64,000 nt of DNA from Lysobacter capsici (GTDB lineage Bacteria; Pseudomonadota; Gammaproteobacteria; Xanthomonadales; Xanthomonadaceae), in contig NZ_CP094357.1 in NCBI RefSeq assembly GCF_014779555.2, positions 2,976,001 to 3,040,000 on the forward strand, given 5' to 3'. The position numbers and the translations under genes are program-made. The notes under the pieces were generated by a model. The model searched no databases. It saw only the letters and a list, made by a program, of their open reading frames with translations, and had not been told where the DNA came from. Below are positions 1 through 54,082 of this stretch, in pieces (the stretch's first letter is position 1; each line of letters starts with the position of its first letter).

Positions 1-3000
1 CACCTGGCTTATGTGATCTACACCTCAGGTTCCACCGGCCGCCCGAAGGGCGTGATGGTCGAGCACCGCCAATTGCTGCACCTGTGGCAAGGAATGCGCG
101 AACGCGTATTCGACGAATTGCCGCCGGCGCTGTGTGTGGCGCTCAATGCCAGCGTGTCCTTCGATGCCTCGCTGCAGGCGCTGGTGCAACTGGGGTCGGG
201 CCACACCGTTTGCATCGTGCCCGCGAACGTGCGCGCCGATGCCGGGCGCATGCTGGACTTCCTCGATACCGAAGCAGTGTCGGTATTCGACTGCACGCCA
301 TCGCAACTGGACCTGTTGATCCACGGCGGCCTGTTCGAACGGGCGCTGCCGCGATTGCGCGCGATCCTGGTCGGCGGCGAAGCGTTTCCGGCCACGGCGT
401 GGAAGCGCGCGGCCGCCGCTCCGGTGGCTTGTTACAACGCCTACGGTCCGACCGAATGCACGGTCAACAGCACGCTGGCGCGGGTCAGCGCCGAACACGG
501 TCCGCATCTGGGCGAACCGCTGCCGGGCGTGCAGGCCTATGTGGTGGAAGCCGATGGAACCCTGGCCGCGCCGGGTGTGGTCGGCGAGCTGTGGCTCGGC
601 GGCAACGGCGTGGCGCGCGGTTATCTGCATCGCCCCGAGTTGACCGCTGAACGCTTCATCGACAACCCGTTCGGCGAGGGTCGGTTGTATCGCAGCGGCG
701 ATCTGGTGCGGCGTCGCGCCGACGGCCGGCTCGATTACCTCGGCCGCAACGACGATCAGGTCAAGCTCCGCGGCCACCGCATCGAACTCGGCGAAATCCA
801 GGCCTGCCTGCGCGAGGTCGAGGGCGTTCGCGACGCGCTGGTGACCGTGGTGCGCGATCGTGACGGCGAGCCGCGCATCGCCGCCTACGTCGTTCCCGAT
901 CCCGCGGCCGCGGACGCCCGCGCGGCGGATGCGCAGGTCGAGCAATGGTCCGGCATCTTCGACGAGCAGGCCGACGAGGACGGCGGCGACGGTTCGGACA
1001 GCTTCGATACGGTCGGCTGGAACAGCAGCTACACCCGCGACGCGATCGCGGACGAGGCCATGCGCGAGTGGCTCGACACCACGCTCGCGCGGATCCGCGA
1101 ACTGCGCCCGCGGCGCGTGCTGGAAGTCGGCTGCGGCACCGGCCTGCTGCTGCAGAACCTGGCCGCGGACTGCAGCCGTTACGTCGGCACCGACCTGTCG
1201 GCGCGGACCGTGGGCAAGCTCGCCCGCCGCATCGCCCGCGATCCGGCCATCGCCGCGGTCGCGCGGGTAGGCGCGGCGCCGGCGCACGACTTGTCGGCGG
1301 TGGAAGAACGTTTCGATACCGCCATCCTGAATTCGGTCGCGCAGTACTTTCCCGATGCGGACTATCTGCAATGCACGCTCGAGGCGATGCTGTCGCGGCT
1401 TGAGCCGGGCGGCCGCCTGTTCGTCGGCGACATCCGCCATTGGGGCCTGGGCGAAGCTTTCCATCTGTCGGTCGCATTGCATCAGGCCGCCGCTGGCGCC
1501 CGCGATGCGCAGATGCTCGAGCAGGCGCGGCGGCGAGCGATCGCCGATCGCGAACTGCTGGTCGATCCGGCCTGGTTCCTGTCCTTGCGCAGTCGCTATC
1601 CGCAGATTCGCGACATCGAGATCCTGCCCAAACTGGGCGAGCGGCATACCGAAATGGCGGCGTTCCGCTACGACGTCGTCATCCACACCCATGCATCGAG
1701 CAGTCACGACGATGCATCCGCCGACGCCACGCCGCCGCTCGACTGGCGCGATTGGCGCAGCACCGCCGCGTTGACCGAGATGCTCGACGCGGCCGCCGCC
1801 GATCCTTCGTCGATCGTCGCCGTACGCGGGATCGCGCACCCGTGGGTCGCGCCGTTCGCGCGCATGCTCGAACAGCGACGGGTCATGCCCGGCTTCCTGC
1901 CGTACCGGCCGCAGGCCGAGAGCGACGACGACAGCCTCGGCATGCTGCCCGCGCGGCTGGCGGCGATGTGCGCGCAGCGCGGACTGGCGTTGCGATTGAG
2001 TTGGGCCGACAGCGGCCGCGACGGTCGCTACGATGCCGCGATCGGCGCGCAGGCGAAGCTGCAAGCGCTTACGGGCGCCGCGTTTGCGTCCTCGCCGCTG
2101 CCGTCGTCGGGCCTGCACAGCTGGCCTTTGCTCGCGGCCGCATGCGCCGACCTGCCGCTGCGCCTGCGCGCCGCGTTGGCGCGCCAGTTGCCCGACTACA
2201 TGCTGCCCTCGGCGTTCGTGCCGATGGTGCGCTGGCCGCTGACAGCGGGCGGCAAACTCGACCGCGCGGCGTTGCCGCCGCCGGACGAGGATGCGCTGGC
2301 GCGGCGCGCCTTCGTCGAACCCGCCGACGCCGCCGAGGCCACGCTGGCCGGGTTGTGGCGCGACTTGCTCGGCATCGAGCGGATCGGGCGTCACGATCAT
2401 TTCTTCGAGATCGGCGGCCATTCGCTGATGGCGGTGCGGCTGGTGGCGCGCATCGAAGAAGCCCTCGGCGTGCAGCTGCCGCTGCGCGAAGTGTTCGAAC
2501 ATCCCACCCTCGCGGCCATGGCGGCGCAAGCGGGCCAGGCCCGCGCCGGAGGTCTGCCGGCGGTGTCGCCGGTCGCACGCGATCGCGATCTGCCGTTGTC
2601 GTGGGCGCAGCAGCGGCTGTGGTTTGTGGACCGGATGGATCCCGAGGGCGCCGCGGCGTATCGGATGCCGGGCTGGTTCAGACTCGAGGGTGAGTTGGAT
2701 ATCGCCGCGCTGGGCCGCGCTCTGGACGCGCTGGTGGCGCGACACGAAACCTTGCGCACCCGTTTTCCCGCCAACGACGGGATCGCGCGTCAGCACATCC
2801 TGCCGGCGGAATCGGGATTCGCGCTGCGGCGGATCGACCTGTCGCACTTGCCCGAAGACGAGGCCTGGGCACAGGCGCGCACGGCTTGCCTGGATGAGGT
2901 CCGGCGCGGTTTCGACCTCGCCGTGGACACGCCCATTCGCGGTCTGTTGGCGCGCATTGGCGAACGCAGCCACGGCTTGCTGGTCCTTCAGCATCACATC

Positions 3001-52784: not shown

Positions 52785-54082
52785 AAGAAACAACCGGCAC
52801 GATGATCGTGCTGCACGAGCGCGCGGCGCCGCCGATCGCGATCGCATCGGCGGACGCTACCGTCGCGATCCGGGTACCGGGCCACGGCGAGGCGACCACC
52901 TTGCCCGGCATGGCCAAGGCGATCCTGGCCGAGTTGCACGAGCGCGGCGTTCACGCCGCCTGCGTGCTGGTCGGTCTGGGCGACCGCGCCGGCGTATTCG
53001 CCCAGGCGCTCGCGCTCGAAATGCTCGGGCGCGATCTGCCGCTGCGTTGCGTGGCGGTCGTGCCCGACGCCGCGCTTGCGGCGGAACCGGCGCCCGCGGA
53101 GGAAGATGCGGCCAGCGATCGCCTGCGGGCGGCGTGCGAGGCATGGACACCGCCGGAGCCCGCGATGCTGCCGACGCTGCGCTGCGCGGACGACGAGCCG
53201 GATGTCGCGGGCTGGGTCGCCGGCACGTTCGCCGCGCCGCCGCTGCCAAAACCACCGGCGGCGACGCAGTCTATTCCGCTCAAGATCGGTGGTCCGCTGC
53301 GCGCGCCGGTGTTCTGCATTCCGGGCGCGGGCGCGAGCATCGTCAGCCTGCTGGACCTGGCTCAGGCGGCGCATCCCCAGGCTAATGTGGTCGGCATGCA
53401 GCCGCGCGGGCTGGATGGCATCGAGCCGCCATGCACTTCGGTGGAAACGGCCGCGGCCTCGATCCTGCCGCAGGTGCTGCAGGCGGCGCCGCACGGTCCG
53501 ATCCGGCTGGTCGGCCATTCCTTCGGCGGATGGATCGCGTTCGCCGTCGCATTGAGACTGCGCGAGCAGGGCAGGACGCTCGCCAGCGTCGACCTGCTCG
53601 ATTCCAGGCCGCCCACCTCCGACCCCGCCATGGCCGAGTGCGACGAGCTGGACGTGCTGCTGCGCTGGATCGCGCTGGTGCAGCTGTCCACCGATCAGCC
53701 GCTGGGCATCGACGCGGCCAGGTTGCGGCCGTTGCCGGCGTCGGCGCGGATGCATCTGGTGCATCGACGCATGGCCGAGGCGGGGCTGATGCCCGCGCGC
53801 TCGGATCCCGCATCGATGCTGGGAGCGCTGCGCATGTTCGCCGCCTGCCTGCGCACTCACTATCGGCCCGCGGGCGATTACGACGGTGTGCTTCGCGTGG
53901 TTTACATGCCCGACCCCGATCTCGATGCCGCCGGTAACGACGACGAAGCCGAGCGGATGCGCGCGGGCTGGTCGCGGCATGCGCCGCGCGTGCAGTTGAT
54001 TCGCGGCGGCGGCAACCACATGACCGGCATCCGTGGCCGGCATGCGAACGCATTGGCCGATCGTCTGGGTCTGAGCGCTTGA
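52781..54082 (+). CDS. Stand-alone thioesterase with a degenerate second hydrolase half
   Basis: 433 residues; ATGA overlap with NRPS4, so translation is coupled. Residues about 175-433 form a type I-like alpha/beta-hydrolase thioesterase: FCIPGAGAS oxyanion region, nucleophile Ser near 247 in GHSFGG, Asp near 275 in DLLDSRPP, and His near 413 in GGNHMTGI. It presumably releases or cyclizes the peptide from NRPS4. No carrier domain is fused to it. The N-terminal ~165 residues match no domain I know, but LVGLGDRAGVFAQALALEML at about 55-75 lines up with LVGHSFGGWIAFAVALRLRE of the active half, without the serine. It may be the remnant of a tandem thioesterase. It is the last gene of the biosynthetic operon. 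Confidence 0.92.
   Translation: MKETTGTMIVLHERAAPPIAIASADATVAIRVPGHGEATTLPGMAKAILAELHERGVHAACVLVGLGDRAGVFAQALALEMLGRDLPLRCVAVVPDAALAAEPAPAEEDAASDRLRAACEAWTPPEPAMLPTLRCADDEPDVAGWVAGTFAAPPLPKPPAATQSIPLKIGGPLRAPVFCIPGAGASIVSLLDLAQAAHPQANVVGMQPRGLDGIEPPCTSVETAAASILPQVLQAAPHGPIRLVGHSFGGWIAFAVALRLREQGRTLASVDLLDSRPPTSDPAMAECDELDVLLRWIALVQLSTDQPLGIDAARLRPLPASARMHLVHRRMAEAGLMPARSDPASMLGALRMFAACLRTHYRPAGDYDGVLRVVYMPDPDLDAAGNDDEAERMRAGWSRHAPRVQLIRGGGNHMTGIRGRHANALADRLGLSA

Follow-up and report, generated by a model that had tools for sequence, protein, structure and literature searches.

The 64,000-nucleotide stretch of the Lysobacter capsici genome analysed here (contig NZ_CP094357.1, positions 2976001-3040000 of a 6.24 Mb single-contig genome; hereafter the window) holds the right-hand part of a larger gene cluster, which in our estimate (probability about 0.75) is a complete, conserved cluster for a modified lipopeptide without an assigned product in the literature searched. 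The assembly line is real, intact and conserved, an orphan with several unusual parts, and is larger and better defined than the original prediction, which had been made from the letters of the window, described. In the mechanism proposed, a fatty acyl-AMP ligase (FAAL) would activate a fatty acid, and the chain would pass 13 amino acid modules (M1 to M13) and one polyketide synthase (PKS) module to give acyl-Ala-NMeGln(or Glu)-D-Thr-Cys-[4-amino-3-hydroxypentanoyl]-Dhb-Cys-D-X8-Ser(OMe?)-D-Ser-D-Cys-Dha-D-basic, where Dhb is dehydrobutyrine and Dha is dehydroalanine, with a calculated mass of ~1.5 kDa. With an acyl chain of C10 to C14, Gln or Glu as X8 and Lys, Arg or Orn as residue 13, the neutral masses come to about 1473 to 1608 before any further tailoring. 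A separate thioesterase would release the chain, and an ABC transporter would export the product.

The domain content and order that carry this proposal were read directly. The original prediction had claimed four megasynthase genes, a PKS malonate module, an exporter and a thioesterase, and all of them are present by open frames and profile scores. Its count of 12 carriers and at least 12 residues agrees with the 12 adenylation (A) domains in the window (4+2+2+4 over the four megasynthases, the first domain being cut by the window edge); the whole line is longer. The first megasynthase frame is open leftward, and the complete gene (contig 2969005-2989527, 6840 amino acids) has its start 6,995 bases to the left of the window, this part encoding an AMP-binding domain (221.6 bits), a DIP2-like C-terminal domain (33.0 bits, cut-off 27) and a carrier (62.0 bits). 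The assembly line begins with FAAL loading and an Ala module outside the window, where it had been suggested that the loading module be sought, and this Ala module brings the total to 13 amino acid modules. Because the intergenic gaps from the first megasynthase gene through the thioesterase gene are only -10 to 63 bases, where start sites were chosen by hand for the exporter, cysteine synthase, third and fourth megasynthase and thioesterase genes, a single operon over this range is plausible, as had been claimed. The cluster itself begins before position 1 of the window. The same range holds five features that had not been mentioned, namely an M28 peptidase, a DsbA-like protein, a cysteine synthase, a second condensation (C) domain in M3 and a terminal C domain.

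The cluster occupies contig positions 2958909-3030082 (71,174 bases, 15 genes by manual count) and starts 17 kb left of the window. It encodes JmjC-like, FkbM-like, GH13-like, GT4, A-T-C and LpxL-like proteins, the first megasynthase, the M28 peptidase, the exporter, the second megasynthase, the DsbA-like protein, the cysteine synthase (CysK), the third and fourth megasynthases, and the thioesterase. This gene order is common to the window genome, Lysobacter sp. Root690, which was the one locus returned by a scan of named genomes, and a third genome, G252. Between the window genome and G252, protein identities from the JmjC-like protein to the thioesterase are 73-90%, with 72% for the DsbA-like protein. 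The flanking frames of G252 (nine on the left, one on the right) had no match in a 174 kb region of the window genome, and since both flanks differ, the JmjC-like and thioesterase genes mark the ends of the cluster. In Root690, most flanking genes are the same as in the window genome. The locus at window 54202-63829, which encodes a JmjC_2/cupin protein, a TonB receptor, a PfkB kinase, a ROK regulator and a GH9 glycosidase and resembles a sugar uptake locus, adjoins the cluster in Root690, whereas G252 lacks it at this place; it was therefore taken as outside the cluster.

The classes of the C domains were observed both by tree and by motif. In a tree of 42 C domains from the window genome, G252 and a neighbouring giant nonribosomal peptide synthetase (NRPS) cluster, built without reference CmodAA sequences, the domains of M4, M9, M11 and M12 and the terminal domain formed one clade of dual epimerisation/condensation (E/C) type (support 100/100), and the domains of M7 and M13 formed a clade of their own (100/100) beside the dual and DCL groups. 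The DCL group consisted of the neighbouring cluster's domains, and the second, tandem C domain of M3 (C*) was placed near the base of the L-clade group. The same three D-clade groups, together with a CmodAA helix motif, [K/R]SVLLAAH, are described in PMC11342130, where the CmodAA subtype dehydrates carrier-bound Ser or Thr, as shown for albopeptide and the AmbE product. M7 carries this motif unchanged, M13 has a close variant of it (RTLLLSVH or RTLLLTAH), and the Arg at C6 is kept in both (EHRRYP or EHRYYP). When the megasynthases and the orphan A-T-C synthetase of the three genomes were searched, the CmodAA pattern, widened by one letter after a stricter form had missed M13 of G252, matched only M7 and M13 in each genome, and it had no match in the two neighbouring giant NRPS genes. 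The best solved relatives of both domains were McyA and AmbE (228 and 208 bits for M7, next best 110; 270 and 188 bits for M13, next best 119), whereas for the control, the dual-type domain of M11, these two ranked last of 12 solved relatives. The T-C1 linkers measured 57-58 amino acids for L-clade domains, 90-94 for four dual domains, 70-73 for M7 and 65-75 for M13, close to the published values of 60 for LCL, 92 for dual and 74 for modAA domains in PMC10212144.

Both CmodAA-type domains come after a Ser or Thr module (M6 Thr and M12 Ser), so that dehydration of Thr6 to Dhb and of Ser12 to Dha is predicted; by the positions of the dual E/C domains, D residues are predicted at 3, 8, 10, 11 and 13. 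The dual domains have an HHLxxxxGD start, which reads HHLRDEGPD in M4. All five also read HHxxxDH in place of HHxxxDG. Two points weigh against these assignments: some long branches meet in the tree, the M7 pair included, and the M4 linker, at 76 amino acids, is short for a dual domain.

The A-domain codes were read from an alignment at nine positions, the tenth letter, Lys517, being assumed, and the nine-position codes are identical across the three genomes for all 42 domains (14 per genome). DLFNNALTYK (M1, M5) points to Ala and DTEDVGTVYK (M13) to a basic residue; DAQDLGAVNK (M2 and the orphan synthetase) suggests Gln or Glu, DFWSVGMVHK (M3, M6) Thr and DVWHLSLVDK (M9, M10, M12) Ser; and M4, M7 and M11 have in common the Cys-like code DLYDFSLVWK. 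PMC12283262 gives DVWHLSLVDK as a Ser code, counts DFWSVGMVHK with those of Thr, assigns DAQDLGVVDK to both Glu and Gln, and has DLYNLSLIWK as a code of Cys; the Cys pattern there (D235, L236, Y/W239, N278, L/M299, L/M322, I/V330, W331) agrees with the code of M4, M7 and M11 at six of its eight positions, 278 being Asp and 299 Phe. Cys is likely, but not proven, as the residue of these three modules. Most of the backbone in the original prediction was retained: its NMe-Gln/Glu, Thr, Ala, malonate, Thr, Ser (with an FkbM domain), Ser, Ser and basic residue keep their sequence, and the residue of DAWKFGHVNK (M8) is carried as X8, but the three positions left there as X share the Cys-like code, and the second Thr and the last Ser precede dehydrating-type C domains.

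It is possible instead that the Cys-like modules load another residue and that the CmodAA-type domains only condense, which would result in an ordinary linear or cyclic, thiol-free lipopeptide with Thr and Ser. The code departs from the common Cys code DLYNLSLIWK at three of ten positions (278, 299 and 330), and the CmodAA-type domains keep an intact HHxxxDG, with which condensation would also be possible. When the M4 A domain was compared with PDB entries, the top matches were linear gramicidin synthase, a peptide synthetase and Txo2, and none of the seven best is known to be a Cys enzyme, while BmdB and dihydroaeruginoic acid synthetase, which use Cys, came eighth to tenth of 62. However, the SGDWI and GGATEA contexts fit Cys domains, the CmodAA residues are kept, and each of the three genomes carries both a cysteine synthase gene and a DsbA-like gene. 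Trp331, Tyr239 and Ser301 likewise fit Cys domains by the pattern in PMC12283262. A thiol-free product thus appears unlikely, though it deserves to be kept in mind. Heterocyclisation at the Cys modules was considered as well and rejected, because the preceding C domains are of the dual or CmodAA type with HHxxxD motifs.

Since the PKS module contains a ketoreductase (KR) domain, the malonate-derived unit probably carries a hydroxy group, and Ala5 extended by malonate and reduced would become the 4-amino-3-hydroxypentanoyl unit. Against this, the active-site position of the KR (window 21272-21802) that usually holds Asn is occupied by Gly in two of the genomes and by Ala in the other one, with Ser and Tyr kept, and a KR without the usual Asn may leave the ketide as a ketone. 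The bleomycin line adds one malonate unit to Ala before it incorporates Thr and, further on, Cys. The same Ala-malonate-Thr-Cys order is predicted here, but with a fatty acid start, and, unlike bleomycin, no heterocyclisation domain was seen in the line and no C-methyltransferase was found in the PKS module. The methyltransferase domain of M2 is presumably an N-methyltransferase, to judge from its position and motif. O-methylation of Ser9 by the FkbM domain is not proven, which also counts against the structure as drawn. A serine module with a methyltransferase gives O-methyl-Ser in KtzH of the kutzneride line, and this arrangement is shared, but the domain here belongs to the FkbM family and the product and starter differ.

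The three predicted Cys residues fit the presence of the cysteine synthase and DsbA-like genes in the cluster. The former enzyme would provide the amino acid, and the latter protein would oxidise a pair of the three thiols beyond the cytoplasm, in the periplasm after export. A hydrophobic segment at the N-terminus, a CGAC site and a TPT loop are features of the DsbA-like protein and of its relative in G252. Of 297 family genomes, three have a match of at least 72% identity to its gene; the match ranking next by score had 47%, and none of the others listed exceeded 48%. An SbnA-type 2,3-diaminopropionate synthase was rejected for the PALP gene, which scored 228 bits with TIGR03945 (cut-off 349.95) and passed the cysteine synthase cut-off. 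FK228 (romidepsin) is a short depsipeptide with Dhb, D-Cys and a disulfide formed by the flavin enzyme DepH. Dhb, D-Cys and a disulfide are common to it and the product predicted here, but this cluster has a DsbA-like protein and three Cys. McyA, from the microcystin line, and AmbE, whose CmodAA domains are the closest solved relatives of the M7 and M13 domains, differ in their setting: here a single lipopeptide line of 13 modules contains two CmodAA-type domains, and a Cys-like residue is next to each of them.

Three thiols in one molecule cannot all pair as disulfides. At least one thiol of Cys 4, 7 and 11 might add to Dhb6 or Dha12 to give a thioether ring, with the remaining two joined by the DsbA-like protein, the orphan A-T-C synthetase acting as a trans carrier for a glutamine modified by the JmjC-like protein, and the GT4 and GH13 proteins adding sugar. 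Such a nonribosomal counterpart of the lanthipeptides is speculative, and we regard it as improbable.

The orphan synthetase can be related to the line through its A domain. The A-domain pairs orphan/M2, M1/M5, M4/M7 and M10/M12 are 94-99.8% identical in DNA within the window genome (94% for orphan/M2) and likewise within G252, while these same domains differ by 14-18% between the two genomes. The likeness within pairs is 87-92% in Root690; its orphan/M2 value of 87.2% is below those of the orthologues between the window genome and Root690 (89.8 and 89.5%) and above those between Root690 and G252 (82.7 and 84.0%). Other pairs with the same code (M4/M11, M7/M11, M9/M10, M9/M12 and M3/M6) are only 59-70% alike within genomes, and therefore the likeness of the pairs does not follow from substrate alone. 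It looks like the result of concerted evolution, a process already noted in the literature (PMC9205934). Because the orphan synthetase shares in this likeness with M2, the comparison suggests that it is active and uses the substrate of M2.

The tandem domain C*, which reads HHIVADR in all three genomes, is a C domain by profile score and falls apart from the other L-clade C domains in the tree. At an E value of 1e-45, matches to it were found in 3 of 369 class genomes, the window genome and two at 29 and 33% identity, in a search that scored at most four candidates per genome and is thus a weak negative. Locus L034 had a single C domain in the stretch examined, and locus L033 had none of the motifs. 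It is a guess that C* recruits a tailoring enzyme such as the JmjC-like protein, and it is possible that C* is a relic of a lost module. Neither C* nor the orphan synthetase has an assigned step in the proposed line, which speaks against the scheme as it stands. The tandem domain, with HHxxxDR instead of HHxxxDG, and the first megasynthase gene of Root690 (G090:C16), which in the draft consists of two overlapping frames owing to a frameshift or a sequencing error, could also be taken as marks of a decaying cluster that has lost its function. However, the Root690 split may be an error of draft sequencing, and in the window genome and G252 the frames of the megasynthases are uninterrupted. Moreover, C* is under purifying selection, with a dN/dS of 0.29 between the window genome and G252 compared with 0.13-0.27 for the 14 other C domains (0.13-0.29 over all 15). 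Decay is therefore highly improbable.

The coordinates of the features are collected in Table 1. In the left arm, the orphan A-T-C synthetase (1115 amino acids) has the GT4 glycosyltransferase (405 amino acids) directly behind it, both on the minus strand, and an LpxL-like acyltransferase (310 amino acids) lies left of the first megasynthase. A GH13-like protein (737 amino acids) has weak family scores, and its gene was found in only 1 of 369 class genomes. A weakly FkbM-like protein (263 amino acids) scores 17.1 bits, below the cut-off of 22.7, and the JmjC-like protein (445 amino acids) scores 23.8 bits with a cut-off of 22. Of 20 genus genomes, three carry the JmjC-like gene, the same three in which the cluster was read; among the 369 class genomes, the window genome alone has it. 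The left-arm proteins probably serve in tailoring or self-protection, and together with the M28 peptidase they may trim, tailor or protect the product.

Table 1. Features of the cluster (window positions unless marked as contig positions; residue readings are predictions)
Feature	Position	Strand	Remarks
First megasynthase, 3' part	1..13527	+	FAAL - carrier - M1 Ala (left of window) - M2 NMe-Gln/Glu - M3 Thr - M4 Cys-like - M5 Ala
Methyltransferase domain inside M2 adenylation domain	922..2184	+	Methyltransf_12, 53.1 bits, cut-off 30
First condensation domain of M3	2590..3870	+	L-clade, HHIASDG
Second, tandem condensation domain of M3 (C*)	3970..5190	+	HHIVADR
M4 condensation domain, dual E/C	7168..8424	+	predicts D-Thr3
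M4 adenylation domain	8632..9924	+	DLYDFSLVWK, Cys-like
M28-family metallopeptidase with hydrophobic segments	13584..16088	+	
Cyclic peptide export ABC transporter	16079..17698	+	passes TIGR01194 cut-off
Second megasynthase	17735..28714	+	ketosynthase (KS)-acyltransferase (AT)-KR-carrier, M6 Thr, M7 Cys-like
PKS module KS-AT-KR-carrier (malonate unit)	17735..22234	+	KS 237.5, AT 188.5, KR 131.2, carrier 50.5 bits, each above Pfam cut-off
M7 condensation domain, CmodAA type after Thr6	25499..26758	+	motif RSVLLAAH; predicts dehydrobutyrine
DsbA-like thiol-disulfide oxidoreductase	28775..29506	+	N-terminal hydrophobic segment, CGAC motif
Cysteine synthase (CysK family)	29527..30465	+	TIGR01139 354.1 bits, cut-off 350.95
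Third megasynthase	30177..38066	+	M8 (DAWKFGHVNK), M9 Ser with FkbM domain; likely true start near 30513
M9 condensation domain, dual E/C	33960..35234	+	predicts D-residue 8
FkbM-family methyltransferase domain in M9 Ser adenylation domain	36882..37442	+	TIGR01444 101.4 bits, cut-off 37.7
Fourth megasynthase	38079..52784	+	M10 Ser, M11 Cys-like, M12 Ser, M13 basic (DTEDVGTVYK), terminal C domain
M11 condensation domain, dual E/C	41643..42893	+	predicts D-Ser10
M12 condensation domain, dual E/C	44961..46232	+	predicts D-Cys11
M13 condensation domain, CmodAA type after Ser12	48129..49382	+	motif RTLLLSVH; predicts dehydroalanine
Terminal dual E/C domain without adenylation domain	51432..52691	+	predicts D-residue 13
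Stand-alone thioesterase, cluster end	52781..54082	+	
Orphan A-T-C synthetase and GT4 glycosyltransferase	contig 2963264-2967825	-	left of window

Right of the window, at contig 3044853-3094992, lie two giant NRPS genes (9306 and 7412 amino acids), which by their codes are probably the WAP-8294A2 line. Like the product predicted here, WAP-8294A2 is a lipopeptide with many D residues, made by a Lysobacter NRPS that has N-methyltransferases within A domains, but the neighbouring line differs in having two giant genes, separate probable epimerisation domains followed by DCL-type C domains, and other codes, and no KS motif was seen in it. In Root690 as well, a comparable NRPS gene begins next to the cluster. 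NRPS-like matches also occur in another region of the window genome, at contig 5575000-5602700.

Among the matches listed in the literature search, no described compound fits the line, and two Lysobacter genome papers are the only reports that may concern it. PMC11451712, a 2024 preprint, describes three uncharacterised Lysobacter hybrids present in more than one genome, one of them unassigned and with a single cis-AT PKS module, and PMC4657364 mentions that L. capsici 55 alone has a certain NRPS/PKS cluster; either may be this cluster. If so, the product could in principle be known in print already, but both papers describe these clusters as lacking a product, and none of the characterised Lysobacter products named in PMC11451712 is known to come from a line of 13 NRPS modules and only one cis-AT PKS module; a product already in print is thus quite improbable. 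The claim that the line fits no known Lysobacter peptide agrees with the products named in that preprint, with the qualification that the unassigned hybrid there may be the same cluster.

The cluster, intact and with sharp ends, offers a structure that can be tested, with a mass of ~1.5 kDa, three thiols and two dehydro residues predicted. The Lysobacter lipopeptides include antibiotics against Gram-positive bacteria, according to PMC11451712. This cluster allows one to ask what role a DsbA-like protein might have in the maturation of a nonribosomal peptide, what the function of a tandem C-C arrangement may be, and whether thiols and dehydro residues would react within one chain.

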